Part shown: piece by piece, positions 21,805 to 41,986 of the stretch
Position numbering within the stretch: position 1 is the stretch's first letter
How the letters are laid out: each line of letters starts with the position of its first letter
Assembly: GCA_946623785.1 (NCBI GenBank)
Contig: CAMORM010000004.1
Location: forward strand, 1 to 51,188
Source: an uncultured Verrucomicrobiota bacterium
GTDB taxonomy: Bacteria > Verrucomicrobiota > Kiritimatiellia > RFP12 > UBA1067
DNA: 51,188 bases
Direction: 5' to 3'
Notes under the pieces: generated by a model
The model's input: the letters and a program-made list of their open reading frames with translations, nothing else
What the model was told of the DNA's origin: nothing
Databases searched by the model: none
Translations under genes and position numbers: made by a program

Positions 21805-24468
21805 ATGATGTTTGATAGAATTTTCACGGACCCAAAGCGGAAGTTCGTAGACGAGGCGGCGGACTGGCTTGCGGCAAGGGTGCGCACGGACGGCGCTGGC
21901 GCGAAGTCGCTTGCGCACATAATGGTCGTCGTGCCGACGGCGCAGTCGGGGAGGCGCCTGCGCTATGCGCTCGCCAGAAGGTTCGAGGGCGGGCTTGTGC
22001 CGCCAGTCGTGCGCATGCCCGCGCACTTCGCGCATCCCGCGGACGAGTCCGCGGTTGCAACGCGCGCCGAGCAGCTTCTCGCCCTCTGGGAGGCGCGCGG
22101 CTCGAAGGGCTCGCTCGACGTCGCCGCTCAGCTCGCCGACATCCGCCGCATCCTCGGCGCGAACGCGCTTTCGTTCGCCGACGTCGCAGAGCGCGTGGGC
22201 GGCATAGTGAAGGGCGATCTCGCCGATGTCGAGATCGAGCGCTGGAAGGAGCTCGCCAATCTCGAGAGCCGCTACTGCGAGGCGCTTGCGAAGCGCGGCA
22301 AGGAAGATGCCGTCGCAGCGGCGAAGCGGGCCGTCGCTTCGCCCGTGAAGCCGGAGGGCGTGGAACTTGTCGTTGTTGCCGGCGTTCTGGACCCGCTGCC
22401 GTTGATGCGCACCGCGCTCGAGAACCTCGGCGCAGATGTGGTGGAGCTTCTGCCTCGCCTCGCGGAGGACGGCTTCTCGCCGCTAGCATCGGAGCAGATA
22501 CGCGCATGCGGCACGGCCGCGAGCGAGTGCTGGCGCATAGCGGATTTTTTCTCCAAGGTGAAGAAGGACGAGGCGCTGCCGGCGCTCTGCCTTGCCGACT
22601 CCGACATCTACCCAGAGATGCAGGGTGCGATGCAGGCGAAGGGACTAAGCGTGCACAACCCTTCCTCGACGCGCCTTGTCACGTCGTCGCTCGGGCATCT
22701 CGTCGCGCAGCTCGCCGCGATGAAGCGGACTTCGTCCTACCGCGTGTTCTCTGCGTTCGTGCGCGGCGGCGACGCGCGCCGCTGGATATGCTCGGAGCTC
22801 GGGCTTTCGTCCGCCGAACTCACCGACGCGCTTGAGGAGCTCGACAGGCGTCAGGCGGAGTACCTTCCAGACAAGATGGAGGACATCGGCCCGAAGCTCA
22901 AGGGCGCGATCCGCGCCGTGTACGAGCTTGTGTCCGCGCAGCTCAGGAAGAAGGGCGTGCGCGAGCTCCTCCAGGCGATCTTCAAAGAGCGCATCCTCGA
23001 CGAGCGCGACGCGGATGCGCGCGAGTTCGCCGCGGCCGCGGAGGCGGTGAACGAGGTGATAGACGAATGCCGCGCGGCCAACGCGCCGGAGACGGTCGCG
23101 ATGGAGCTCTTCGAGCGCCGCCTCGAGGAGGCGACCTATTCGCTTGAGCCCGACGAAGGTGACGCGGTGCTTACGGACGGCTGGCTCGAGCTTCCGTACC
23201 TCGATGCCGACGAAGTGGTGATAGCGGGCTTCCAGGAAGGCTGCGTGCCGGAGTCCGTTGTGGGGCATGCGTTCCTCCCCGACTCGCTGCGCCGCGGGCT
23301 TGGCCTTCCCGACAACGACTCGCGCGCGCGGCGCGACCTCGCCATACTCAATATGGCGCTTGCCTGCCGCGGCAGGGAGGCCGTGCGGATATCGTTCCAC
23401 GGAGTCGACGCCAATGGTGACGTGCTCAAGCCGTCGCGGCTCCTCTTCGCCTGCTCCGGCGACGCGGAGCTCGCCTCGCGCGTCAAGCGGTTCTACGCGC
23501 AGAAGGCCGGCACGGAAGAGACGCCTGCCGCGGACATGCCGAACGCGTGGAAGCTGAAGCTCCCCGTGCCGCCCGAGCACTGCGACCTGGAGTTCTCGTC
23601 GCCTTCCGGCCTCGGGAACTACCTCGCATGCCCGTTCATGTACTACATCGGAAAACTGTTCGGCGAGCGGATGGACGACAGGGCGGAGGAGCTCGACCCA
23701 TCGGAGTTCGGCAACCTCGCGCACAATGCGCTGGAAGCGTGGGCGAACGGACCGCTGCGCGACTCCGACGATGCCGATGCGATCGCGTCCGACCTCGCCG
23801 GGCGCGTAGACGCGCTTCTGCAGGAGCGCTTCGGGGCGGATGTTCCGGCGATCGTGTCGCTCCAGGGCGAGAGCGTGAAGAGGCGTCTCGCCCACTTCGC
23901 CTCCGCGCAGGCGGAGCGCCGGCGCGATGGCTGGCGGATAGCAGCCTCCGAGCGGAAGCTGCAGGTGAAGTACGGCCATACGCTCATCAAGGGGCGCTGC
24001 GACCGCGTGGACTACAACGACCGGACGGGCAAGTGGTGCGTGATCGACTACAAGACGTGGGACAATCCCGAGAGGGCGAAATGCTACGACGCGAAGAGCG
24101 ACACGTGGACCAGCCTCCAGCTGCCGCTCTACTGCGCGATGCTGGACGTCGACGACGATCCGCTCTTCAAGGACGCGCATCTCGAGAACATAACGTCGGC
24201 GTACTGCCTGCTCGCGAAGACCGCCGAGGCGACCGGTTTCACCGAGCCGATGCGCGGCGACCTCGTGCCGGGCGCGGAGCGCGTTGCTCGCGCGCTCATA
24301 GAGCGCATCGAGCGCGGGATATTCTGGCCGCCGTCCGGCGCGATGGCGTGGAGGTACGACTTCGGGCAGTGGTTCCAGGGCTCGCCCGCAGACGGAGTGG
24401 ACGAGGCGTGGATCGGAGACCAGATGCGCCGCATCGAGGCGGCCGGCGGAGAGGAGGCGGCGAAATGA
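21805..24468 (+). CDS. AddB-like PD-(D/E)XK nuclease/inactivated helicase
   Basis: VVVPTAQSGRRLRYAL; VVIAGFQEGCVPE; SPSGLGNYLACPFMYYIGKLFG; GRCDRVDYNDRTGKWCVIDYKTWDN. Confidence 0.85.
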   Translation: MMFDRIFTDPKRKFVDEAADWLAARVRTDGAGAKSLAHIMVVVPTAQSGRRLRYALARRFEGGLVPPVVRMPAHFAHPADESAVATRAEQLLALWEARGSKGSLDVAAQLADIRRILGANALSFADVAERVGGIVKGDLADVEIERWKELANLESRYCEALAKRGKEDAVAAAKRAVASPVKPEGVELVVVAGVLDPLPLMRTALENLGADVVELLPRLAEDGFSPLASEQIRACGTAASECWRIADFFSKVKKDEALPALCLADSDIYPEMQGAMQAKGLSVHNPSSTRLVTSSLGHLVAQLAAMKRTSSYRVFSAFVRGGDARRWICSELGLSSAELTDALEELDRRQAEYLPDKMEDIGPKLKGAIRAVYELVSAQLRKKGVRELLQAIFKERILDERDADAREFAAAAEAVNEVIDECRAANAPETVAMELFERRLEEATYSLEPDEGDAVLTDGWLELPYLDADEVVIAGFQEGCVPESVVGHAFLPDSLRRGLGLPDNDSRARRDLAILNMALACRGREAVRISFHGVDANGDVLKPSRLLFACSGDAELASRVKRFYAQKAGTEETPAADMPNAWKLKLPVPPEHCDLEFSSPSGLGNYLACPFMYYIGKLFGERMDDRAEELDPSEFGNLAHNALEAWANGPLRDSDDADAIASDLAGRVDALLQERFGADVPAIVSLQGESVKRRLAHFASAQAERRRDGWRIAASERKLQVKYGHTLIKGRCDRVDYNDRTGKWCVIDYKTWDNPERAKCYDAKSDTWTSLQLPLYCAMLDVDDDPLFKDAHLENITSAYCLLAKTAEATGFTEPMRGDLVPGAERVARALIERIERGIFWPPSGAMAWRYDFGQWFQGSPADGVDEAWIGDQMRRIEAAGGEEAAK

Positions 24469-27383
24469 ACGAGAACCTCCTCATAGAGGCTTCCGCAGGG
24501 ACGGGCAAGACGCACGCGCTCGCGACGCGGCTCATCGATCTCCTGCGCCTTGGCGTGGAGCCGCGCGAGATCGTGGCGCTCACGTTTTCGCGCGCGGCCG
24601 CGGGCGAGATATTCGAGCGTTTCGTCTCGATGCTTGCGGACAGCGCCGGCACGAACGCGGAGGACGCGAGGCTCCTCAGGAAGGTAGTGTCGACGCAGCA
24701 CCTCTCGCAGATAGGCACGCTCGACAGCTTCCTCATGCGCATCGTGAGAAGCTTCCCGCTCGAGCTCGGGCTGGACGGCGAGCTCGAGATAATGGACGAC
24801 TACCGCGCGGGGTGCGAGCGCGCGAAGACGTCGTTCGCCATCCTGCGCCGCACCGACGGCAGGACGAAGCGCGCGTTCGCGGATGCGTTCGCGCTCGCGA
24901 TGAACCGCGAGGACGTGCGAAGCTTCGTCGAATCGTACCGCGAATTCATCAAGAACTGGCATGAGCTGGTCCTCTCGCATCCTGCGGCGACGGCATGGGG
25001 CGATCCGTCCGCGATATGGCGTGTCCCGCCGGCTGGCGTTTTCGCGACCGGAGCGGATCTCGCTGCGGCGGCGGAACGCATAGAGGCCGCAACGTCCGAC
25101 GCGCGAGTGGCGGAGTTCGCCGAGTGGGTGCGGTCCTTCCGCGGGACGTTCACCGGCGTGAAGGGGCTTGCGAAGAAGATACTCGAGGTCGAGTCGATAT
25201 TCGGCCTCGACTCGATATCCGTGACGTTCAACAAGAAGGAGTATCTCTTCACGGGACGCCTTGCGGACGCCGTGAAGGACGCGCTGCACGCAGTGTACGG
25301 ATACGTGCTGCGGCAGAAGTTCGAGCTCGCGAAGGGCGTGTACACGCTCATATCGTCGTACGAGGCGGAGTACGCGAAGAAGGTGCGCGGAAAGGGACGG
25401 CTTGTCTTCGCCGACGTTCCGCGGCTCATTGCGCGGCTGGGCGAGGCGGAGCGAATGGCGCTCGAATACAGGATGGACGCGAAGATCGGGGCGTGGGCGC
25501 TTGACGAGTTCCAGGACACGAGCCGCGAGCAGTGGAAGGCGCTTTCGCCGCTCATAGAGGAGGCGAAGCAGTCCAACGGCGACAAGTCGCTTTTCGTCGT
25601 CGGAGACCGCAAGCAGGCGATCTACGGCTGGCGCAACGGCGACGTGGGGATATTCACGCGCGAGCGCGAGAGCGGCGCGTACAAGACCGACGAGCTGAAG
25701 AAGACGTACAGGTCGGGTCCCGCTGTGGTGGAGGCGGTCAACAGGGTGTTCGTGGACGGTCCGCTGAAGACAGAGTTCCCGACATGGGAGGCGCCTGTGC
25801 ACGAGACTGCGAAGCCGGAGCTCGGCGGATTCGTGCAGACCGTTGAGGCGGGCGGCACGGGCAAGGAGGACTTCGTCGAGCCGGTCTTCAACGCGCTTTC
25901 GGCAGTCGACCCGGTGGCGCGCGGAATATCCGCGGCCGTGCTCGTAAGGTCGAACGGCTTAGGCGAGATGCTCGTGGCGATGCTTAAGGCAAAGGGCCTG
26001 AAGGGGATCGTGTGGGAAGGCGAGAGCGCGATACTCGACACACCCGCGCTGCGGGGATTCCTCGATCTCGTGGCGCTTGCGGACCATCCGGGCGACGTGC
26101 AGTCGTACAGGCATTTCGCGACCACGCCGCTTGCCGCCGCGAAGTTCCCAGGCGGAGTCCCGTCCGCGCAGGAGGTTTCCGCATGGGCGGCCCTGGAGTT
26201 CACGGCGCGCGGGCTTGTGCGCACGTTCCGCGAGCTTCGTGCGCTGCTGCCGGAGAAGCCGGAGGAGGCGTGGAGCGAATTCACCGAGGCGAGGTTCACC
26301 GACATGCTCAGGGCGGCGGCGGAGTTCGAGCTTTCGATGGAGCCGGGCGTAAGGCTTTCGGACTTCGAGGGCTTCATCGCCGCGAAGACGAAGCGCAACC
26401 TTGCGGAGCCGGGCAAGATCAAGGTGATGACGATCCACAGGTCGAAGGGTCTCGGGTTCGACTATGTGGTGCTTCCGCTCTACGAACGCCGTGCGCTCAA
26501 CGTGGAGCCGGGAGGGCCGCTTGTGGATGACGACTGGGTGTTGCCCGATCCGGGACCGCGCGTGGTCAAGGCGGTGGAAGGACTGAGCGACGCCTACAGG
26601 CTGCGGAGGGACCGCGAGGAGCAGGAGGCGCTGTGCGCGTACTACGTGGCGATGACGCGCGCGAAGAGGGCGATGACGATAGTCGTCCAGCCGCCGCCTG
26701 CAAAAGACACGGGGTCCCGCAGGATGTCGGACTTCGTGCGCATGTCCCTGCCTGCCGAGATCGGCGACCGCGAGTGGCACCTGAAGTTCGTGCCCGAAAA
26801 GGGAAACGCATTGGCCGAGTGCGAGATGCCCGCGCCGAAGCGCGGCCCGAGGAGCCTGGTCTCCAGGCGTCTGCCGTCGCAGTCGTTCCACCCGGGGATG
26901 TCTGCCGGGGCGCTTTTCCTGTCCGACGGCTCTAGGAAGGCGGCGATGGAGCGCGGCACCGCTGTCCACGCGGCGCTCGAGGGGATCGAGTGGGTCGACC
27001 CTTCCGCGCCGCGCGACGACCTGGAGCGCCGGATACTCGCCACGGAGATGGCCGCGGCGTTCACGCGTCCCGCCGGCCTTGCGGGGCTTTGGCGCGAGAG
27101 GTTGTTCGAGATCGTCTCGGGCGGGAGATGGACATCCGGCCAGTTCGACCGCGTGGTGTTCACGGGAAGCGGCGAAGGCCGGAGGGCCGCGATATACGAC
27201 TTCAAGACGAACAGGAAGCGCAGGGGCGAACCGGACGCAGACTTCGCGCAGCGGATGCGCGAGACGTACTCGGGACAGATGGCGGCATACCGCGAGGCGG
27301 TGCGCTCGCTTACGGGCATTCCGCCCGAGAACATCTCCGCCGCGCTGCTCCTTGTCGAGACCGGCAAGGCGGTGCCCTGCTGA
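24465..27383 (+). CDS. AddA-like UvrD/Rep helicase with C-terminal PD-(D/E)XK nuclease
   Basis: IEASAGTGKTHAL; LDEFQDTSREQW; VGDRKQAIYGWRNGD; KVMTIHRSKGLGFD; YVAMTRAKRAM; AAIYDFKTNRK; ATGA overlap. Track ORF start at 23547 is spurious extension. Confidence 0.9.
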   Translation: MNENLLIEASAGTGKTHALATRLIDLLRLGVEPREIVALTFSRAAAGEIFERFVSMLADSAGTNAEDARLLRKVVSTQHLSQIGTLDSFLMRIVRSFPLELGLDGELEIMDDYRAGCERAKTSFAILRRTDGRTKRAFADAFALAMNREDVRSFVESYREFIKNWHELVLSHPAATAWGDPSAIWRVPPAGVFATGADLAAAAERIEAATSDARVAEFAEWVRSFRGTFTGVKGLAKKILEVESIFGLDSISVTFNKKEYLFTGRLADAVKDALHAVYGYVLRQKFELAKGVYTLISSYEAEYAKKVRGKGRLVFADVPRLIARLGEAERMALEYRMDAKIGAWALDEFQDTSREQWKALSPLIEEAKQSNGDKSLFVVGDRKQAIYGWRNGDVGIFTRERESGAYKTDELKKTYRSGPAVVEAVNRVFVDGPLKTEFPTWEAPVHETAKPELGGFVQTVEAGGTGKEDFVEPVFNALSAVDPVARGISAAVLVRSNGLGEMLVAMLKAKGLKGIVWEGESAILDTPALRGFLDLVALADHPGDVQSYRHFATTPLAAAKFPGGVPSAQEVSAWAALEFTARGLVRTFRELRALLPEKPEEAWSEFTEARFTDMLRAAAEFELSMEPGVRLSDFEGFIAAKTKRNLAEPGKIKVMTIHRSKGLGFDYVVLPLYERRALNVEPGGPLVDDDWVLPDPGPRVVKAVEGLSDAYRLRRDREEQEALCAYYVAMTRAKRAMTIVVQPPPAKDTGSRRMSDFVRMSLPAEIGDREWHLKFVPEKGNALAECEMPAPKRGPRSLVSRRLPSQSFHPGMSAGALFLSDGSRKAAMERGTAVHAALEGIEWVDPSAPRDDLERRILATEMAAAFTRPAGLAGLWRERLFEIVSGGRWTSGQFDRVVFTGSGEGRRAAIYDFKTNRKRRGEPDADFAQRMRETYSGQMAAYREAVRSLTGIPPENISAALLLVETGKAVPC

Positions 27384-27491: not shown

Positions 27492-28412
27492 ATGCAGGCG
27501 AATGAAGTGAAGCCGACGCTGCTGGTGCTGGCGGCAGGAATGGGATCGCGCTATGGCGGACTGAAGCAGGTAGACCCTGTTGGGCCGGGTGGGGAGGCTA
27601 TACTCGACTACTCCGTCTTTGACGCGCACCGCGCCGGGTTCGGCAAGGTCGTGTTCGTGATCCGCAAGTCCTTCGAGGCGGAGTTCCGCGAGAAGGTGGG
27701 CGCGAAGTACGCGGGCATCCTCCCGGTCGAGTACAGCTACCAGGACATCGCGGACCTCCCCGCGCCGTTCACCGTGCCGGAGGGGCGCGAGAAGCCGTGG
27801 GGGACGGCCCATGCGATCCGCTCGGCGCGCGGCATCGTGAAGGAGCCGTTCGCCGCCATCAACGCCGACGACTTCTACGGGCGCGACGCGTTCGCGCGGC
27901 TCGCCGGATTCCTCAAGACGCCGCGCGATGGCGGCAAGCTCCACTTCGCGATGGTCGGATACAACCTCGGCCTCACGCTTTCAGAGAACGGCTCCGTGGC
28001 GCGCGGCGTGTGCACGATCGACGACGGCGGCTACCTTGCCGGCGTGAAGGAGATGACGAAGCTAGTCCGCGCCGGCGACAAGGCGCGCAACGAGGAGGAC
28101 CCCGCGAACCCCGTGGAGGTTCCGCTGGACGCTCGCGTCTCGATGAACCTCTGGGGGTTCACGCCGGAGCTCTTCGACGAGCTCGAGAAGCGCTTCCCGG
28201 CGTGGCTCGAGGCGAACGGCAGGGCCGTCAAGAGCGAGTGGTACATCCCGTTCGTCGTCGACGAGATGATCAAGGACGGCACGGCGGACGCGAAGGTGCT
28301 TCCGACCGAATCGTCCTGGTTCGGCGTCACGTACCGCGACGACAAGCCGTTCGTGATGGAGTCGATCAAGCGTCTCGTGGAGGCGGGCGAGTATCCCGCG
28401 AAGCTGTTCTAG
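27492..28412 (+). CDS. sugar-phosphate nucleotidyltransferase family protein
   Basis: LVLAAGMGSRYGGLKQVDPVGPGGEAILDYSVFDA; PWGTAHAIR; INADDFYGRDAF; RBS AGGAGG 9 nt before ATG. Confidence 0.88.
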   Translation: MQANEVKPTLLVLAAGMGSRYGGLKQVDPVGPGGEAILDYSVFDAHRAGFGKVVFVIRKSFEAEFREKVGAKYAGILPVEYSYQDIADLPAPFTVPEGREKPWGTAHAIRSARGIVKEPFAAINADDFYGRDAFARLAGFLKTPRDGGKLHFAMVGYNLGLTLSENGSVARGVCTIDDGGYLAGVKEMTKLVRAGDKARNEEDPANPVEVPLDARVSMNLWGFTPELFDELEKRFPAWLEANGRAVKSEWYIPFVVDEMIKDGTADAKVLPTESSWFGVTYRDDKPFVMESIKRLVEAGEYPAKLF

Positions 28413-28439
28413 CCGTCGGCAAAAGGAAGGGGAAGGCAA

Positions 28440-29489
28440 GTGTCAAACAGGACCTACACGAAGGAAGAGCTCTTCGCCGCGATGGCGTCGCTAGGTGTCA
28501 AGGACGTCGTTTCCGCCGAGCGCTACGGCTCGGGGCACATAAACGACACGTTCAGGGTGGTGGACGCGAAGGGCGTGCAGTACATCCTCCAGCGCATCAA
28601 CACCGACATCTTCCCGGATCCGGACGCGATGATGGACAACATCACGCGCGTGACGGCGCACATCCGCTCGAAGGGCGGGCGCTCGCTGGAGGTTCTCGGC
28701 TATGTCAGGCCGTGGCGCCTCTATGCGTTCATCACGGGGGCGCGCACGGTTGACCTCATAACCGACGCGAGACAGGCGTACCTTGCCGCGAACGCGTTCG
28801 CGAAGTTCCAGGACGCCCTTGCGGACCTCCCGCAGCCGCGTCTCAACGAGATTCTCCCGAAGTTCCACAACACGCTCTCGCGCCTTGAGCTCCTCGACGC
28901 CGCCGCTAAGGCGGACGTGAAGGGCCGCCGCGCGCTCGTGTCGCGCGAGCTCGACTTCGTGGACGCGCATCGCGCCGAGGCGGGCAGGATCGTAGAGGCG
29001 ATGGCCTCGGGCGAGATCCCGGAGCGGATCACCCACAACGACACGAAGATCAACAACGTGATGCTCGACGACGTAACGCAGGAGGGCGTGGCGGTGATCG
29101 ACCTCGACACCACGATGCCGGGATCCGCGCTCTACGACTTCGGCGACATGGTGCGCACCTCCACTGCGGCCGCGGCGGAGGACGAGAAGGACCTCTCGAA
29201 GGTGTTCTCGCGCGAGGAGTACTTCGAGGCCCTGGTGAAGGGCTATCTCGCCGGCGCGAAGTTCCTGAACGACGCCGAGCTGGACGCGCTTGCGTTCTCG
29301 GGGCGCCTCATAACCTTCACCATCGGAGTCAGGTTCCTCACCGACTACCTCGCGGGGGACACGTACTTCCGCACGGCCTACGAAGGCCACAACCTCGTGC
29401 GCTGCCGCACTCAGTTCAAGATGGTCGAGTCGATGGAGGCGCAGCGCGGCCGCTACGAGCAGATCGTGCGCGAGAACTTAGGAAGGTAG
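28440..29489 (+). CDS. phosphotransferase-family sugar kinase, N-acetylhexosamine 1-kinase (NahK)-like
   Basis: YGSGHINDTFRVVDAKGVQYILQRINTDIFPDPDAMMDNI; ITHNDTKINNVMLDD; AVIDLDTTMPGSALYDFGDMVR; GTG start. Confidence 0.85.
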   Translation: MSNRTYTKEELFAAMASLGVKDVVSAERYGSGHINDTFRVVDAKGVQYILQRINTDIFPDPDAMMDNITRVTAHIRSKGGRSLEVLGYVRPWRLYAFITGARTVDLITDARQAYLAANAFAKFQDALADLPQPRLNEILPKFHNTLSRLELLDAAAKADVKGRRALVSRELDFVDAHRAEAGRIVEAMASGEIPERITHNDTKINNVMLDDVTQEGVAVIDLDTTMPGSALYDFGDMVRTSTAAAAEDEKDLSKVFSREEYFEALVKGYLAGAKFLNDAELDALAFSGRLITFTIGVRFLTDYLAGDTYFRTAYEGHNLVRCRTQFKMVESMEAQRGRYEQIVRENLGR

Positions 29490-29525
29490 TCAACGGGCTT
29501 ACAAGTACAAAACAAGGAGACAGTC

Positions 29526-30302
29526 ATGGAAATCGTGATATGCAGGACTAAGGAAGAGGCAAGCCGCAAGGCGGCCGACATGGTGGCGGCGCTCGTGAAG
29601 AAGAACCCCAAGTGCGTGCTCGGCCTCGCAACTGGCTCGACCCCGGTGCTGATGTACAGCGAGCTCGCCAAGGACGTGAAGGCGAAGAAGATATCGTTCA
29701 AGAACGTCCGCTCGTGGAACCTTGACGAGTACTACGGCCTTGCGCCGACGCACGACCAGAGCTACCGCTACTTCATGAACGCCAACTTCTTCGACCGCAT
29801 CGACATCAAGAAGGCGAACACGCACGTCCTCAACGGCCTCGCGAAGGACTGGCGCAAGGAGTGCGCGGCCTACGAGAAGGCGATCAAGGCGGCCGGCGGA
29901 ATCGACCTCCAGGTGCTCGGCATCGGGTCGGACGGCCACATAGCGTTCAACGAGCCGGGAAGCTCGCTTGCGTCGCGCACGCGCCTCGTGTCGCTCACGC
30001 CCCAGACGATCAAGGACAACGCGCGCTTCTTCGCGAAGGCGTCGGACGTCCCGCGCCACGCGCTTTCGATGGGCGTGGGGACGATCTGCGAGGCGAAGAA
30101 GGTCGTGCTGCTCGCGTTCGGCGCGAACAAGGCCGATGCCGTGAAGGCGGCGGTCGAGGGCGGGATGAGCCAGTTCTGCACGGCGTCCGCGCTTCAGGCG
30201 CACAACGACGCGTGGTTCTTCTGCGACGCCGCCGCGGCCGCGAAGCTCAAGCTCCGCAAGTTCTACGCATGGCGTTCCGAGACGGTCCTCGCCTCGCTGT
30301 AG
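29526..30302 (+). CDS. nagB: glucosamine-6-phosphate deaminase
   Basis: LGLATGSTPVLMY; NLDEYYGLAPTHDQSYRYFMN; LGIGSDGHIAFNEPGSSLASRTR; LSMGVGTI. Confidence 0.95.
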   Translation: MEIVICRTKEEASRKAADMVAALVKKNPKCVLGLATGSTPVLMYSELAKDVKAKKISFKNVRSWNLDEYYGLAPTHDQSYRYFMNANFFDRIDIKKANTHVLNGLAKDWRKECAAYEKAIKAAGGIDLQVLGIGSDGHIAFNEPGSSLASRTRLVSLTPQTIKDNARFFAKASDVPRHALSMGVGTICEAKKVVLLAFGANKADAVKAAVEGGMSQFCTASALQAHNDAWFFCDAAAAAKLKLRKFYAWRSETVLASL

Positions 30303-30328: not shown

Positions 30329-32347
30329 ATGTTGTGGTTCAAGGCGGTTCTGACGCTCGCGTTCCTCGCCGTGATGGTGGGGATCGGAGTCTACAGCAGG
30401 AAGCATTCAAGGACGGTCGACGGGTTCGTTCTCGGCGGGCGGAACGTGGGGGCGTGGCTCACGGCGTTCGCGTTCGGCACGAGCTACTTCTCCGCCGTGG
30501 TGTTCGTCGGCTACGCCGGGCAGTTCGGCTGGAAGTACGGCCTTTCGTCCACGTGGATCGGCATCGGAAACGCCGTGATAGGCTCGCTCCTGGCGTGGCT
30601 CGTGCTCGCCAGGCGCACGCGCCTGATGACGCAGCACCTCCAGAGCCGGACGATGCCGGACTTCTTCGGCACGCGCTTCGACTCCGAGGGGCTGCGCATC
30701 GTGGCGTCGGTCATCGCCTTCGTGTTCCTCATACCGTACACGGCGGGCGTGTACATGGGCATCTCCAAGCTCTTCGAGCTCGGGTTCGGCTCGGCCATCC
30801 CCTACGAGTTCTGGGCCGTGCTGATGGCAACCCTCACGGCGGGATACGTGATCCTCGGCGGATACAAGGCCACGGCGATCAACGACTTTGTCCAGGGCAT
30901 CGTGATGCTCGTGGGCATCTCGGCGGTCATCGCGCTTGTCATCCACCACCAGGGCGGGCTTTCCGCGGCGGTCGAGAAGCTTGCGGCCGTGTCGCCCAAC
31001 GCGGACGACCTCGCGCAGCGCGGCAAGGAGCTCTACGCGAACTTCAAGCCGGGCGACTTCGCGTCGTGCTTCGGCCCTGCGAAGATGAGCCTCCTCGGGG
31101 TTGTGGTGCTTACGTCGCTCGGGACGTGGGGCCTTCCGCAGATGGTCGGCAAGTTCTACTCGATCACGGACGAGAAGGCGATCCGCCGAGGGACGATCAT
31201 CTCCACGGTGTTCGCGTTCGTCGTCGCGGGAGGGTGTTACTTCCTCGGCGGCTTCGGGCGCCTTTTCGTTAAGACGGCCTTCGACGCCGGGAGCGGCAGG
31301 TTCGCGTTCGACTCGATCATCCCGCAGATGCTCTCGGGGCTTCCCGAGGCGCTCATGGCGCTCGTGATGCTGCTGGTGCTTTCGGCGTCGATGTCGACGC
31401 TAGCCTCGCTCGTGCTGACCTCGAGCTCCACGATGACGCTCGACATCATCTTCCGCGACAAGGTCTCGGGGTTCGACGAAGTCCCCTCGGGCCAGATCGA
31501 CGACAGCGTGGCCGCCAGGGTGGAGAGGCGCAAGGTCGTGGTGATGCGCGTGCTGATCGTGTTCTTCATCGTGCTCTCCCTGATGATCGCGCTGAAGCCG
31601 CCGCACTTCATCGCCCAGCTGATGGGCATCTCGTGGGGCGCGCTCGCGGGCGCGTTCCTCGCGCCGTTCCTGCTGGCGCTCTACTGGAAGGGCGTCACGC
31701 GCGCTGGCGTGTGGGCCTGCTTCGCGTGGGGAGTGGGCATAACCGTGGTGAACATGCTCTTCGGCAATCCGGTCAACCCGATAGACTGCGGCGCGATCGC
31801 GATGCTCGGCGGGTTCGTCGTGGTTCCGCTCGTGAGCTTCGTGACGCCGCACCTCCCCGCCAGGGCGCTCGACAAGGTCTTCGCCTGCTACAGCGACAGG
31901 CGCGAGGAACCCTACCGCGCCGAGAAGAAGACGTGCGGGTACTGCGCAGAGGGCGGGTACCTCGAGCCGTTCGGGATCAAGATCGGCGTGCTGCCGATGT
32001 CGAAGGTCTACCTCTTCAAGGAGCAGAGCCACAGGGGCCGCGTAATCGTGGCGTGCAAGCTCCACGTGAGCGAGATCACCGCGCTCACCTCCGACGAGCG
32101 CGACGCGTTCTTCAAGGACGTCGACCGCGTGGCGCGCGCCCTCCATTCCCTCTACCATCCCGAGAAGGTCAACTACGGCGCATACGGCGACACGGGCCAC
32201 CACCTGCACTTCCACCTCGTGCCCAAGTACAAGGACGACGAGTTCGAGTGGGGAACGGTCTTCGAGATGAACCCGAAGCGCAAGTTCCTCTCGGACAGGG
32301 AGTACGCGGAGATGGTCTCCGCCATAAAGGACGCCATCGGCATATAG
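30329..32347 (+). CDS. sodium:solute symporter (SSS family) fused to C-terminal HIT-family domain
   Basis: N-term SSS: GVYSRKHSRTVDGFVLGGRNVGAWLTAFAFGTSYFSAVVFVGYAGQFGWKYG; C-term from about residue 536: CGYC...LYLFKEQSHRGRVIV..GAYGDTGHHLHFHLVPKYKDDEFEWGTVFEMNP (HxHxHxx). Confidence 0.88.
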   Translation: MLWFKAVLTLAFLAVMVGIGVYSRKHSRTVDGFVLGGRNVGAWLTAFAFGTSYFSAVVFVGYAGQFGWKYGLSSTWIGIGNAVIGSLLAWLVLARRTRLMTQHLQSRTMPDFFGTRFDSEGLRIVASVIAFVFLIPYTAGVYMGISKLFELGFGSAIPYEFWAVLMATLTAGYVILGGYKATAINDFVQGIVMLVGISAVIALVIHHQGGLSAAVEKLAAVSPNADDLAQRGKELYANFKPGDFASCFGPAKMSLLGVVVLTSLGTWGLPQMVGKFYSITDEKAIRRGTIISTVFAFVVAGGCYFLGGFGRLFVKTAFDAGSGRFAFDSIIPQMLSGLPEALMALVMLLVLSASMSTLASLVLTSSSTMTLDIIFRDKVSGFDEVPSGQIDDSVAARVERRKVVVMRVLIVFFIVLSLMIALKPPHFIAQLMGISWGALAGAFLAPFLLALYWKGVTRAGVWACFAWGVGITVVNMLFGNPVNPIDCGAIAMLGGFVVVPLVSFVTPHLPARALDKVFACYSDRREEPYRAEKKTCGYCAEGGYLEPFGIKIGVLPMSKVYLFKEQSHRGRVIVACKLHVSEITALTSDERDAFFKDVDRVARALHSLYHPEKVNYGAYGDTGHHLHFHLVPKYKDDEFEWGTVFEMNPKRKFLSDREYAEMVSAIKDAIGI

Positions 32348-36510: not shown

Positions 36511-36581
36511 CGCCCATCCCGGGAGGCCGCGGTCAAGGCCCGTGCCTGAACCTTCCGGCCTCCTGCTGCGTTTAAAGTTTG

Positions 36582-37502
36582 ATGACATTCAGGAATTCCA
36601 ACGCCCAGCAAGGGTTCACGCTTGTCGAACTCCTGGCGGTTGTGTCGATTTTAGCCGTTTTGGCGGTGTTCGTGGCTGGACGCTTCGAACGCCTTACCAG
36701 CACGGCGCGCATAACCGTTGCCGAGTCCGACTTGAAGACCATACGCGACGCCTTTATGGATCCTGACATCGGATATATCGCGGATATGAGCGGAATTCCG
36801 GGTTTTTCCGTTGGATATCTTAGGCTCGGCAATCTTATGGTGTCTACAAACCTGTATGGTACCATTGCAGTCGGAACGGACAGGACGCGCGGCATCAGGG
36901 TGGACGACCTCAGCGAATCGGCCGCGCTTTCGTACGGGTGCGCAAAGGCGTCGGCGTTCACCTCGTGGAACGAGGAAAGCGGCCGCGGATGGCGCGGGCC
37001 ATACGTCCGCACCGGGTCCGCTGCGGTTGCGGCGGTCTTTCCGGGCGAGAGGGACATTAGGTTCGACGAAGACTCCACGTTCGGCGACCGAGGGTTCTAC
37101 CCTGACGTTTCGAACATTGAGCTTCCGGACGACATTGTCGTCCGATTGAACGACTGCTCGGCCTATGGCTTTCCCGGCGAGCCCACGATCATGGATCCGT
37201 GGGGAAATCCGTATGTCCTGCAGATTCCGCCGATCCAGGCGTTCAGGGGGGCGACGAACGTTACGGACGAAGCGCGCTTCTCGTATGCGCGCGTCGTCTC
37301 CGCCGGGCCAAACGGGATACTTGAGGCGCCATGCTATTCCCAGAACGCCACGAACCGCCTCGGCACCACGTGGAACGAGCGGACAAGGCGCCTCGTCCGG
37401 CAGGCCGGTCTCATAGACGGCGACGACAGGTCCTCGCGCGGCGACGACCTGGTGCTGTTCCTTACCCGCGGAGACATCGACGAAGGGGAGGACATCTGGT
37501 GA
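36582..37502 (+). CDS. GspG-like pseudopilin (prepilin-type N-terminal methylation)
   Basis: QQGFTLVELLAVVSILAVLAVFVAGRF; MDPWGNPYVLQIPP; GPNGILEA. Confidence 0.88.
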   Translation: MTFRNSNAQQGFTLVELLAVVSILAVLAVFVAGRFERLTSTARITVAESDLKTIRDAFMDPDIGYIADMSGIPGFSVGYLRLGNLMVSTNLYGTIAVGTDRTRGIRVDDLSESAALSYGCAKASAFTSWNEESGRGWRGPYVRTGSAAVAAVFPGERDIRFDEDSTFGDRGFYPDVSNIELPDDIVVRLNDCSAYGFPGEPTIMDPWGNPYVLQIPPIQAFRGATNVTDEARFSYARVVSAGPNGILEAPCYSQNATNRLGTTWNERTRRLVRQAGLIDGDDRSSRGDDLVLFLTRGDIDEGEDIW

Positions 37503-38386
37503 GGGGCCGTAGCGCATTTACGCTGATAGAGCTGGTCGTCGTCCTTGTGGTGATGGCCGTGCTCACGCACCTTGCCGTGCGCGAGATATCGCAGGTGCGA
37601 GCGGCGCAGCTGCGCAAGGTGGCGGACAGGCAGCTTGAGACCCTTCGCGAATGCGTGTGGCACGTCTCGCAGTTCGGCGACCCGGAGGGATTCCTTTCCG
37701 ACATGGGCCGCCTGCCGCGTCTTGTGTCGCAGACGAACTCTCAGGGCACGTCAGTAGGGACGCTTTCCGAGCTTTGGCGCCGTCCGGCGTCGGCCCGCCA
37801 GTTCGCGCTACTGTCCGCGGCAAACAGCTCGCTGTACGTCCATGGGGCGGACGCAGGTTCTCTTGCCTCGATGGGCGCAGGCGTCTTGGTGCCGACCGGC
37901 TGGCGCGGCCCGTACCTCAGGATGCCGTTTGGCAAGGACCGCCTGTTCGACCCATGGGGCAACGCGATCGAGTCGGTTGACGAAGCTGGCTTTACGCGCA
38001 TAGTCGTGTCCAACGGGTTCGCGTCCGCCGTTTCGCATCTAGGCTCGGACGCGCGGCCGGACGACAAGTTCGCGCCGGGGTCCGTGGCCGCGGGAGACAT
38101 GACGCTTTCGCTGCTGCCGGATGGCGGGGCTACGAGCCGCCTCGTGCTCAGGGCGGAGGTGACGAACGGGTCGACTTTCGCGGGCGAGATAACCTGGGCG
38201 TGGTATGGCCCGGCGGACGGGCTGATAACGGGCGGCGTGAAGCGGGTCTCGTATCCCGTGGCGGCCGAGTTCAGCGGACTCACGCCTGGGCTGAAGATAG
38301 TGAAGGACTCCCTTTCGGGTGTGCCGCGGAGCGTGTTCGTGCGCCCAGGCGACAATCTCGTGCAGATCAGGATTGCAGTGCCGTAA
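37499..38386 (+). CDS. pseudopilin, prepilin-type N-terminal segment
   Basis: VRGRSAFTLIELVVVLVVMAVLTHLAVREI; LFDPWGNAIES; GTGA overlap. Confidence 0.82.
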   Translation: MRGRSAFTLIELVVVLVVMAVLTHLAVREISQVRAAQLRKVADRQLETLRECVWHVSQFGDPEGFLSDMGRLPRLVSQTNSQGTSVGTLSELWRRPASARQFALLSAANSSLYVHGADAGSLASMGAGVLVPTGWRGPYLRMPFGKDRLFDPWGNAIESVDEAGFTRIVVSNGFASAVSHLGSDARPDDKFAPGSVAAGDMTLSLLPDGGATSRLVLRAEVTNGSTFAGEITWAWYGPADGLITGGVKRVSYPVAAEFSGLTPGLKIVKDSLSGVPRSVFVRPGDNLVQIRIAVP

Positions 38387-38387
38387 C

Positions 38388-39167
38388 ATGAAGAAGAAGG
38401 ACAAAGATCGGGTTTGGGACGACCCCAAGGCGTTCCGCCAGCAGGTGCGGCTTGCGGCCGTGCAGGTCGCCGGGCTTTCGCCCGACGAGCTGGAGGTTGC
38501 GCTCGCGTACGAAGTGGAGCCGTTCAGCGCGATACCTGCCAAGGACGCCGAGCTCGTGTTCCGTCCGGTCGACGATCCGGACGCGACCGTGCGCGTGTTC
38601 GACGTCGCGGTTAGGCGCAGGCAGCAGAAGTCAGGCGGATCGTGCCTGCTGAACATCGTGCTAGGCGTCGTCGGCCTTGCGGCGATCGCGCTACTTGTGC
38701 TCGCGTGGCGCGACTACGAGCACATCAAGGCCGAGGAGGCTCGCCTTGCCGCCGAGACCACCAGGCGATCGGCGTTCGCCGGCGAGCTTGCGGCGCTGCA
38801 GAAGGCGGTCGACAAGAACCGCAACGAAACGAAGGCGCACCGCGACAACCGCGTTGGCATAACGCGCGGACGGCAGAACACGGAAGTGCTGCGCGACGTC
38901 TACAAGACGCTGCTCGCGACCGTGTCGGAGGCTTTCGGCAACGATGCCGTGCTGAAGCAGATCAAGTGCCCCAAGCCGTATTCCGCCGAGATAACCGCCA
39001 TGAGCCTGAACACGAAGGCCGCTTCGGCGACGCTTGTGCGCCTGAGCAGCGCGCTCGTGCCGAAGGGCTGGACGATCGAGCCGGGGCCGCTTACGTCGAA
39101 CGGATCCGGCGGGACCGTGGGGTTCTCCTGCACGGTGACCTTCGACGAAAGGGGGGAGTTCAGATGA
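38388..39167 (+). CDS. PilN/GspL-like pilus assembly protein
   Basis: Central TM LLNIVLGVVGLAAIALLVLAWRDY followed by coiled coil; operon position. Confidence 0.5.
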   Translation: MKKKDKDRVWDDPKAFRQQVRLAAVQVAGLSPDELEVALAYEVEPFSAIPAKDAELVFRPVDDPDATVRVFDVAVRRRQQKSGGSCLLNIVLGVVGLAAIALLVLAWRDYEHIKAEEARLAAETTRRSAFAGELAALQKAVDKNRNETKAHRDNRVGITRGRQNTEVLRDVYKTLLATVSEAFGNDAVLKQIKCPKPYSAEITAMSLNTKAASATLVRLSSALVPKGWTIEPGPLTSNGSGGTVGFSCTVTFDERGEFR

Positions 39168-39718
39168 CGGCCCTCCGCCTAAGGGACAAGCTTTTCGTGG
39201 TCGTCGTCATCCCGGCGGCGCTGCTGGGCTCGTACGTATACTACTGGCGCATTCCGCACGCCGAGAAGGTCAAGACCGCAAGCGAGGCCTGCGCCAAGCT
39301 GATCACCCCCGAGAAGCACGCGGAGGAGAAGGCGAAGCTCAAGAAGCTCGTTGCCGACACCGCCGCAGAGCTGGAGGCGGAGAAGAAGACGAACGTGCCG
39401 GAGTCGAAGATCGCAGCCGGAGCGGGCGACACGGTCGCCGCGCGGGAGCAGGCCGTTCTCGACGTTTTCCGCGACGCCGGGATTAGGGTCGTCTCGTCCG
39501 AGATAAACAACTCCGAGGACGGCGGTGCGCGCGGTGGTGCCGTGCTGCGCGCGACCGCGCTGCGTCCTTCGCCGCGCGGCCGCCTATACCGCCTTGAGGG
39601 AAGCTACTCCGAGGTGCTTCGCGCACTGTGCCTGGTCACGGAGCGCAAGCGCGCCGTGATAGCCGAGCGGCTTGAAATGACGGGGGGCGACAAGTGGTCG
39701 CTCCTCCTGTGGCTCTGA
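39164..39718 (+). CDS. PilO/GspM-like pilus assembly protein
   Basis: N-terminal TM, coiled coil, small ferredoxin-like C-term; ATGA overlap; operon position. Confidence 0.5.
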   Translation: MTALRLRDKLFVVVVIPAALLGSYVYYWRIPHAEKVKTASEACAKLITPEKHAEEKAKLKKLVADTAAELEAEKKTNVPESKIAAGAGDTVAAREQAVLDVFRDAGIRVVSSEINNSEDGGARGGAVLRATALRPSPRGRLYRLEGSYSEVLRALCLVTERKRAVIAERLEMTGGDKWSLLLWL

Positions 39719-39737
39719 ACCAGGGAGAACACGCCAG

Positions 39738-40859
39738 ATGGACGCACTTCTCGAAAGCCTCTTCGCCGCATGCGAGGAATCCAAGGCGAGCGACCTGCAT
39801 CTCGCCACCGGGCTCGCGCCGCGCTTCCGCGTGAGGGGCGCGCTCGTGGAGTTCGGGGGGTACCGCCCGTTCGACGCAAAGTCGGTCGACGCCGTTGCGA
39901 TGGAGCTCGGCCTCTCCACCCTGCCTCTCGGCACGCCGGACGGCACCGAGAAGGTACGCTACACGCTCGTGAAGGAAGGCTCGATCGACGGCGCGGTAAC
40001 GGCTCCGAGCGGCGTGCGATACCGCTTCAACCTCTTCCGCGAAATGGGCAAGACCGCAGTCGCGCTTCGCCGGCTCGACGCGGAGTTCCGCTCCTTCGAG
40101 CAGCTCGGGCTTCCGCGGAGGATCGCCGACTTCTGCATGGAGACGGACGGCCTGGTTGCCGTGACCGGGCCTACCGGGAGCGGCAAGACCACGACCCTCG
40201 GCACGATGCTCAACCGCATCAACGAGACGCGCGACGCCCACATAATCACGATAGAGGACCCGGTGGAGTACGTCCACACAACGAAGCGCTGCCTGGTGAA
40301 CCAGCGGCAGATCGGGCGCGACACGAAGAGCTTCAACGACGCCCTAGTGGAGGCGCTTCGCCAGGACCCAGACGTGATCCTCGTTGGCGAGATCCGCGAC
40401 CTCGGCACGGTGCGTACCGCGCTGCGCGCCGCCGAAACAGGCCACCTCGTGTTCACCACGCTCCACGCTGGCGACTGCGCTGGCGCGATAGAGCGCCTCA
40501 TATCTGTCTTCCCGGCGGACGAGCAGTCGAGCGCGCGCCACCAGCTCGCGCTCTCGCTGCGCGGAATCGTGGCGCAGCACCTCGTGAAGACGGCGGACGG
40601 CAAGGGGCGCGTGCCTGCGTGCGAGGTCCTGGTGAACAACACGGCGGTCGCGAACCTTATCGCCACCGGGCGCTCGGCGCAGATATACTCGATCCTCGAG
40701 ACCGGCACGGCGCTCGGGATGCGCACGCTCGACCAGTCGCTCTCCGAGCTCCTCGCCCAGGGGAAGATCAGCGAGGCGGTTGCGATGTCGCTTTCGAAGA
40801 ACCCGGACGCGCTGCGTGCGCGCGTGCGCCACGGAATGGGCGCGGGAGGTGCATCATGA
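39738..40859 (+). CDS. pilT: PilT-like retraction ATPase
   Basis: ASDLHLATGLAPRFRVRGAL; TGPTGSGKTTTLGTMLNRIN; IITIEDPVEYVH; RQDPDVILVGEIRD; TTLHAGDCAGAIERLISVFP. Confidence 0.92.
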   Translation: MDALLESLFAACEESKASDLHLATGLAPRFRVRGALVEFGGYRPFDAKSVDAVAMELGLSTLPLGTPDGTEKVRYTLVKEGSIDGAVTAPSGVRYRFNLFREMGKTAVALRRLDAEFRSFEQLGLPRRIADFCMETDGLVAVTGPTGSGKTTTLGTMLNRINETRDAHIITIEDPVEYVHTTKRCLVNQRQIGRDTKSFNDALVEALRQDPDVILVGEIRDLGTVRTALRAAETGHLVFTTLHAGDCAGAIERLISVFPADEQSSARHQLALSLRGIVAQHLVKTADGKGRVPACEVLVNNTAVANLIATGRSAQIYSILETGTALGMRTLDQSLSELLAQGKISEAVAMSLSKNPDALRARVRHGMGAGGAS

Positions 40860-41986
40860 TAAGCGCAAACGAACTCCTTTCGCGCGCCGAGCTGCTCACG
40901 GACCCCGTCCGGCTGACCGACCGCATACTGCGCGCAGGGCTTCTCATGCACGCCTCGGATGTCCATTTCGACCCGGATGCGACGTCCGTTCGCGTCCGTT
41001 TCCGCATCGACGGCGAGCTCGAGGAGGTGCTGCGCATACCTGGGACCATGCAGGCCGGCGTGACCGGACGGCTCAAGGTGCTGGCGTCGCTCGACATAGC
41101 GGAGCGGCGGGCGCCGCAGGACGGCGGGTTCACGTGGCGCATGCCAGACATGGGCGGCGGGCGGTTCTCGCCGCTAGACGTCCGCATGGCCACGCTTCCG
41201 GTGCGCCACGGCGAACGCGTCACGCTCCGTCTCCTGGAGACTGACGCCGAGCGGCTCACGCTCGACAACCTTGGCCTTTCCGACGCCGACCACGCCGTGT
41301 TTTCGGGCGTCCTTGCGCAGCCACACGGACTCGTGCTTCTCACCGGGCCGACGGGGAGCGGCAAGACGACCACCCTCTACGCCGCGATACAGCAGCTCCT
41401 CAAGGGGCGCCCGCTCAACATCCTCACGGTCGAGGATCCGATCGAGTACGAGATACAGGGCGTGAGCCAGGCGGAGGTGGACTCGTCGGACAAAGTGAAC
41501 TTCTCGAAGGCGCTCAAGTCGCTTCTCAGGCACGACCCGGACGTCATCATGATCGGCGAGATACGCGACGCCGATTCGCTCGACGCCGCCGTGAAGGCGG
41601 CCTTGACCGGGCATCTGGTGCTTTCGACACTTCACACGAACGACGCGAAGAGCTCGGTGACGCGTCTTGTCGACATGGGCCTTGCGCCGCACCTCGTCCC
41701 CGCCACGCTCCGGCTCGCCGTTGCGCAGCGCCTTGTTCGCCGCCTTTGCCCGAAGTGCAGGGTGAAGGGCGAGAACGGCTTCGAGGCCAAGGGGTGCCCT
41801 GAATGCGGCAGCCGCGGGTATTCGGGGCGCATCGGACTGTTCGAGCTGTACGACCCGTCGACTGAAAGGCTCACCTCGATGCGCGACGACGCCAAGGCGA
41901 AGATCGATGCCGGCGTCACTTCGTGGAGCGAGGTCGTGAGGGTCGTTGGCACGGCCGACCTCGGAATCACCGGAGGCAACTGCTGA
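40856..41986 (+). CDS. PilB/GspE-like assembly ATPase lacking an N-terminal MshEN domain
   Basis: ASDVHFDPDATSVRVRFRIDG; GPTGSGKTTTLYAAIQQL; VEDPIEYEIQGVSQAEVD; LSTLHTNDAKSSVTRL; CPKC..CPEC. Confidence 0.92.
   Translation: MISANELLSRAELLTDPVRLTDRILRAGLLMHASDVHFDPDATSVRVRFRIDGELEEVLRIPGTMQAGVTGRLKVLASLDIAERRAPQDGGFTWRMPDMGGGRFSPLDVRMATLPVRHGERVTLRLLETDAERLTLDNLGLSDADHAVFSGVLAQPHGLVLLTGPTGSGKTTTLYAAIQQLLKGRPLNILTVEDPIEYEIQGVSQAEVDSSDKVNFSKALKSLLRHDPDVIMIGEIRDADSLDAAVKAALTGHLVLSTLHTNDAKSSVTRLVDMGLAPHLVPATLRLAVAQRLVRRLCPKCRVKGENGFEAKGCPECGSRGYSGRIGLFELYDPSTERLTSMRDDAKAKIDAGVTSWSEVVRVVGTADLGITGGNC

Follow-up and report, generated by a model that had tools for sequence, protein, structure and literature searches.

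A sodium:solute symporter fused in frame to a histidine-triad domain in two Kiritimatiellae genomes

Can a sodium:solute symporter (SSS) and a histidine-triad (HIT) protein be made as one polypeptide and, if so, what might the second do at the end of the first? These questions arose from a single gene in the window, that is, the whole 51,188-nucleotide stretch of DNA analysed. The gene (30329..32347, + strand) is one open reading frame of 672 codons, read through without a stop. A preliminary description had claimed a true SSS-HIT fusion with both domains complete, and this was substantiated by Pfam searches. SSF (PF00474) matched residues 33-462 (E 2e-52) over positions 1-400 of the 406 in the profile, thus near full length, while HIT (PF01230) matched residues 573-635 (E 1.2e-5) and exceeded the curated cut-off. 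SSF and HIT were the only Pfam domains found in the protein.

One frame, two assemblies

The claim that the junction lacks an in-frame start codon could be extended, as TTG is missing along with ATG and GTG between codons 505 and 554 (i.e. 506-553). A complete HIT protein can therefore not initiate separately inside the gene. When 115 genomes from the same family were searched, one further gene of like architecture turned up in genome G112 (L157:7658-9685, minus strand), encoding 675 aa with 77% identity to the window protein over the full length. It is likewise devoid of a start codon at the join, so that an internal start yielding a separate HIT protein was ruled out for both genes. G112 was assigned to a different genus from the window genome, and the neighbourhood of its fusion is unrelated. 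The window stems from a gut-type Kiritimatiellae bacterium whose genome was assembled from a metagenome (2.79 Mb in 257 contigs; completeness 78%), a provenance that would suit an indel or contig chimera merging two genes, but such an artefact is very unlikely given that G112 was assembled independently and shows the like architecture between different flanks, and that neither of the two other forward frames over the join contains a HIT-like or SSS-like reading mergeable by a single indel. An indel removing a stop near 31.9 kb, which had been named as a way in which the claim might fail, thus finds no fitting frame, and the other such case, that all relatives carry two separate genes, does not apply, since G112 is fused. 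Because two separate assemblies agree, we conclude that the fusion is genuine and has had time to diverge.

The symporter part, the HIT part and their join

The symporter part comprises residues 1-521 (30329..31891, +) and is 84% identical to L003, an unfused symporter from another Kiritimatiellae MAG. Hydropathy analysis indicated 13 hydrophobic segments, which were also helical in the AlphaFold model; the last one, TM13, spans residues 487-505 (31787..31843, +) and corresponds to a modelled helix at 484-505. The odd-numbered loops are rich in K/R, a positive-inside pattern that places the predicted C-terminus of the symporter, and hence the HIT domain, in the cytoplasm. Residues S356/T357 are invariant in the alignment and presumably fit the Na2-like site of PutP-type symporters. 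In the full-length AlphaFold model, the SSS part was good and the HIT part was of low confidence because only two alignment rows cover it; the model consequently gives no docking information.

Unfused SSS symporters from Kiritimatiellae and rumen Bacteroidales (L003, L004 and others) share 67-84% identity with the symporter part, but, unlike the fusion, they reach a stop codon a few residues past a shared CY motif. None of the best 80 symporter relatives in public genomes was fused to HIT, and tail extensions did not exceed 29 residues in any locus save the HIT fusions and the porin fusions discussed below. One apparent match to residues 2-636 (L052) proved to be an unfused symporter with a spurious extension. 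That homologous symporters from different phyla are so similar points to lateral transfer. In 69 of 77 cases (L003-L082), mostly from rumen Bacteroidales, the symporter locus also contains a Porin_O_P-like gene. Certain loci also hold PaaK-like and indolepyruvate oxidoreductase-like genes (named by eye from sequence), a hint at aryl-acid uptake.

The HIT domain occupies residues 536-672 (31934..32344, +) and features the CxxC pair C536/C539, H579 and the triad motif H625-L-H627-F-H629-L-V, in which HxHxHxx is present. The CxxC and triad residues are unchanging among 22 HIT homologues. An AlphaFold model of the domain (mean pLDDT 86) matched HIT proteins in the PDB from E 1.4e-9, with a TM-score of up to 0.83 on target length. 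Closest were the bacterial HITs 3i4s, 2oik and 3i24 from structural genomics, followed by Fhit and mycobacterial Ap4A phosphorylases. The sugar nucleotidyl transferase GalT, which had been considered as an option, gave no family match by profile and did not appear among the 50 fold matches listed, so that this option found no support. Standalone HITs of the same Kiritimatiellae family (e.g., in G033, G001 and G052) are 71-76% identical to the fused domain and share its CxxC, triad and N-terminal segment. They differ in being encoded by a gene of their own, with about 150 aa and their own ATG. In the loci examined, the standalone gene was not adjacent to this symporter, and the relatives' loci revealed no conserved neighbours of HIT genes that point to a function. 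No close standalone homologue of the fused HIT was found in the window genome or in G112, both of which are incomplete assemblies. HIT homologues from a sample of 15 Bacteroidales genomes were 42-47% identical, and none was fused.

The join (residues 522-535; 31892..31933, +) was delimited by alignment to standalone HITs starting MDTREEK or MDPRCE. Certain standalone HITs start M-D-T/P-R-E/C, and residues 522-535 match these N-terminal residues with the Met lost. The segment REEP-Y/F-xx-EKKTCGYC is kept in the fused proteins without the initiator Met, and the usual symporter end (CY plus a few residues) runs straight into the start of the HIT sequence. Unfused L003 ends TGC TAC GAC AGG TAG, compared with TGC TAC AGC GAC AGG CGC in the window. 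A microhomology join at GACAGG was considered, but is undercut by the linker of G112, which is 4 residues (4 codons) longer and renders the original join uncertain.

Genomic surroundings and history of the fusion

The SSS-HIT architecture was present in only two of the 346 genomes of the class, namely the window genome and G112; the other class genomes examined encode SSS and HIT apart. No third case emerged from the class-wide search or from a 388-genome sample of the phylum. A YacP-like NYN gene (L157:7140-7661, -) overlaps the end of the G112 fusion. G150 has a related, unfused symporter whose gene end is likewise overlapped by the directly following YacP-like NYN gene (L153:1028-1510, -), the product of which is 58% identical to its G112 counterpart. 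The HIT cassette of G112 is therefore located precisely between symporter and YacP-like neighbour. Convincing HIT remnants were not found behind the unfused symporters of sister species.

In the window, the fusion gene follows a nucleotidyltransferase-like gene (27495..28412, +; weak NTP_transf_3 match, adjoining the kinase in several relatives), an APH-family, NahK-like kinase gene (28440..29489, +; Pfam APH; 107 of the 112 genomes of the family had a match) and the glucosamine-6-phosphate deaminase gene nagB (29526..30302, +; NCBIfam PRK00443/nagB above cut-off), which ends 26 bp upstream of it. All four genes lie on one strand with short gaps. The gene order therefore agrees with the earlier placement of the fusion inside an amino-sugar salvage operon, but this holds for the window genome only: the nucleotidyltransferase-kinase-NagB unit (27495-30302) recurs in several Kiritimatiellae relatives, none of which has a copy of this symporter behind NagB, and the G112 fusion is located elsewhere. 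As far as tested, the link to amino-sugar salvage is private to the window genome, and the proposed tie of the fusion to amino-sugar chemistry found no support. Elsewhere in the window, two long genes (21805-27383) resemble an AddB/AddA (RecB-like) nuclease-helicase pair, and a cluster at 36579-41986, with pseudopilin-like N-termini and PilT- and PilB-like ATPases, resembles type II secretion/type IV pilus genes; both were read by eye.

The symporter tree placed the SSS part of the window protein as sister to unfused L003 (support 100/90), and a topology forcing the two fused SSS parts together was rejected (AU p = 3.8e-6). As the fused SSS parts are not sisters, three histories are possible: the fusion was formed independently in each lineage, it was formed once and then lost at least four times (our count on the tree), or its C-terminal cassette was passed on by partial recombination. 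The SSS tree ruled out that the whole fused gene moved from one lineage to the other. The HIT tree showed the fused domains as sisters or left them unresolved, with weak support (67-82), and they have just one residue in common that nine near standalone HITs all lack. Comparison of the window gene with that of G112 (NG86) gave dN/dS values of about 0.31 for the SSS part and about 0.38 for the HIT part; judged from these sequences, the HIT part is under purifying selection. The end branches of the fused HITs measured 0.23 and 0.29, compared with a median of 0.08 over all end branches, lengths that point to a change or partial relaxation of constraint. The standalone HITs L115 and L116 stray from the fixed residues of the group about as often as the fused HITs do.

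Possible roles and comparison with known systems

With somewhat better than even confidence, we favour the assumption that the gene encodes a membrane-tethered, active HIT nucleotide hydrolase on a working symporter, the gain being co-expression and membrane location. The product would be one bifunctional membrane protein whose N-terminal 521 residues form a sodium:solute symporter with a cytoplasmic C-terminus, so that a whole HIT enzyme, a separate 150-residue protein in relatives, would be anchored on the cytoplasmic side of the membrane. Most probably, the HIT part continues to act as a nucleotide hydrolase of the histidine-triad type with a metal site at CxxC, and its chemistry would be of the Ap3A/Ap4A or nucleoside-phosphoramidate type, proceeding through H627. 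The symporter would presumably still import its solute. Topology, catalytic activity, metal binding and transport are what we infer for this protein, and functional coupling of its two halves is possible. In the simplest case, a permissive symporter tail would have accepted a useful enzyme. This reading is favoured by the occurrence of the fusion in two genera with 77% identity throughout and no start codon at either join, by the low dN/dS of both parts, the invariant triad and CxxC and the lack of a close standalone HIT in either genome, as well as by the positive-inside pattern and the match of the HIT model to solved HIT hydrolases. Against it, the long fused-HIT branches could mean that the function is relaxed. 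Moreover, if the fusion arose twice between non-neighbours, coupling would be more likely than a neutral rider.

A related fusion illustrates how much the symporter tail may tolerate. At L059:4992-7868 (= L086) and L070:4971-7865 (= L154), symporters 74% identical to that of the window continue in frame into a porin-like protein of about 440 aa, the two ORFs being 82% identical to each other. An internal signal peptide blends into the last symporter residues, and the L059 join contains no ATG, GTG or TTG. L083 and L107 encode the porin as a gene of its own, downstream of the symporter. The fused ORF looks like a polyprotein of an inner-membrane symporter and an outer-membrane porin, possibly cut by signal peptidase. 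Its halves can hardly act as one protein, and fusion alone is hence no proof of cooperation. This fusion suggests that partners have been added to the tail of this symporter family more than once, and its presence in two other genomes indicates that the tail tolerates them without needing a working partnership.

The main rival to the tethered enzyme is a coupled, CbrA-like transceptor, in which HIT would regulate transport by binding or cleaving a nucleotide, be it an alarmone of the Ap4A type or one derived from the imported solute. We rate it as rather unlikely. In its favour, there is precedent for SSS domains that carry a signalling domain on the cytoplasmic side (PMC7918813, PMC13022988), and the SSS tree is at odds with one vertical origin restricted to the two fused genes; selection may therefore have favoured this pairing on two occasions. 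Yet the separate SSS and HIT genes are not adjacent in the relatives examined, the join is a short linker instead of a STAC-like domain, and no signalling gene was tied to this HIT. Somewhat less probable still is that this symporter subfamily and this HIT were fused independently in two lineages, even though the two genes lie apart elsewhere, because the HIT activity targets or governs the symporter's cargo. If true, the protein would be a transporter equipped with its own enzyme for metabolising or sensing nucleotides.

Two further explanations appear improbable. In the first, the tethered HIT would act as gatekeeper or detoxifier, cleaving nucleotide conjugates (phosphoramidates, Trojan-horse-type compounds or adenylated side products) as they come in or arise close to the importer. 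MccH and like HIT hydrolases confer resistance to peptide-nucleotide antibiotics (PMC7157772), and a HIT at the inner face of an importer would suit such a task. The fused HIT, however, retains HxHxH, whereas MccH has Lys in place of the third His (PMC7157772). No peptide-nucleotide gene cluster was seen nearby. We know of no SSS symporter that imports peptide-nucleotides, which also speaks against this role. In the second, to which we give similarly little credence, chance removed the stop codon and the HIT start, and one of the parts is on its way to being lost through drift. The rarity of the fusion in the class and the fused HIT branches, longer than most standalone ones, would be in line with neutral decay, but the active-site residues are intact, dN/dS is far under 1 in both parts and the frame was maintained despite 23% residue divergence.

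As the preliminary description had supposed, we did not find a published SSS-HIT protein in the open-licence literature; both kinds of component fusion, SSS with a soluble signalling domain and HIT with other proteins, are already known there, and it is the SSS-HIT pairing that appears new. The SSS/SLC5 sensor kinases CbrA and CrbS/MxtR display an SLC5-STAC-histidine kinase architecture (PMC7918813, PMC13022988). As in the SSS-HIT protein, a complete SSS domain is followed by a cytoplasmic soluble part in one polypeptide, but this part is STAC/PAS/HisKA in the CbrA type and a HIT enzyme here; STAC, HisKA and HATPase domains are absent after the SSS domain of the fused protein. On the HIT side, nitrilase-Fhit (NitFhit) joins a HIT hydrolase to an unrelated protein and figures as a textbook 'Rosetta stone' case (PMC9913352); its structure 1ems was among the fold matches of the HIT model. 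The partner in NitFhit is a soluble enzyme, whereas that in SSS-HIT is a 13-helix membrane transporter. The occurrence of SSS-HIT in two genomes with discordant history may serve as a Rosetta-stone hint at the target of this HIT subfamily or of the symporter. Most of the known SSS symporters that bear a fused soluble domain are sensor kinases; the partner here is a metabolic HIT enzyme.
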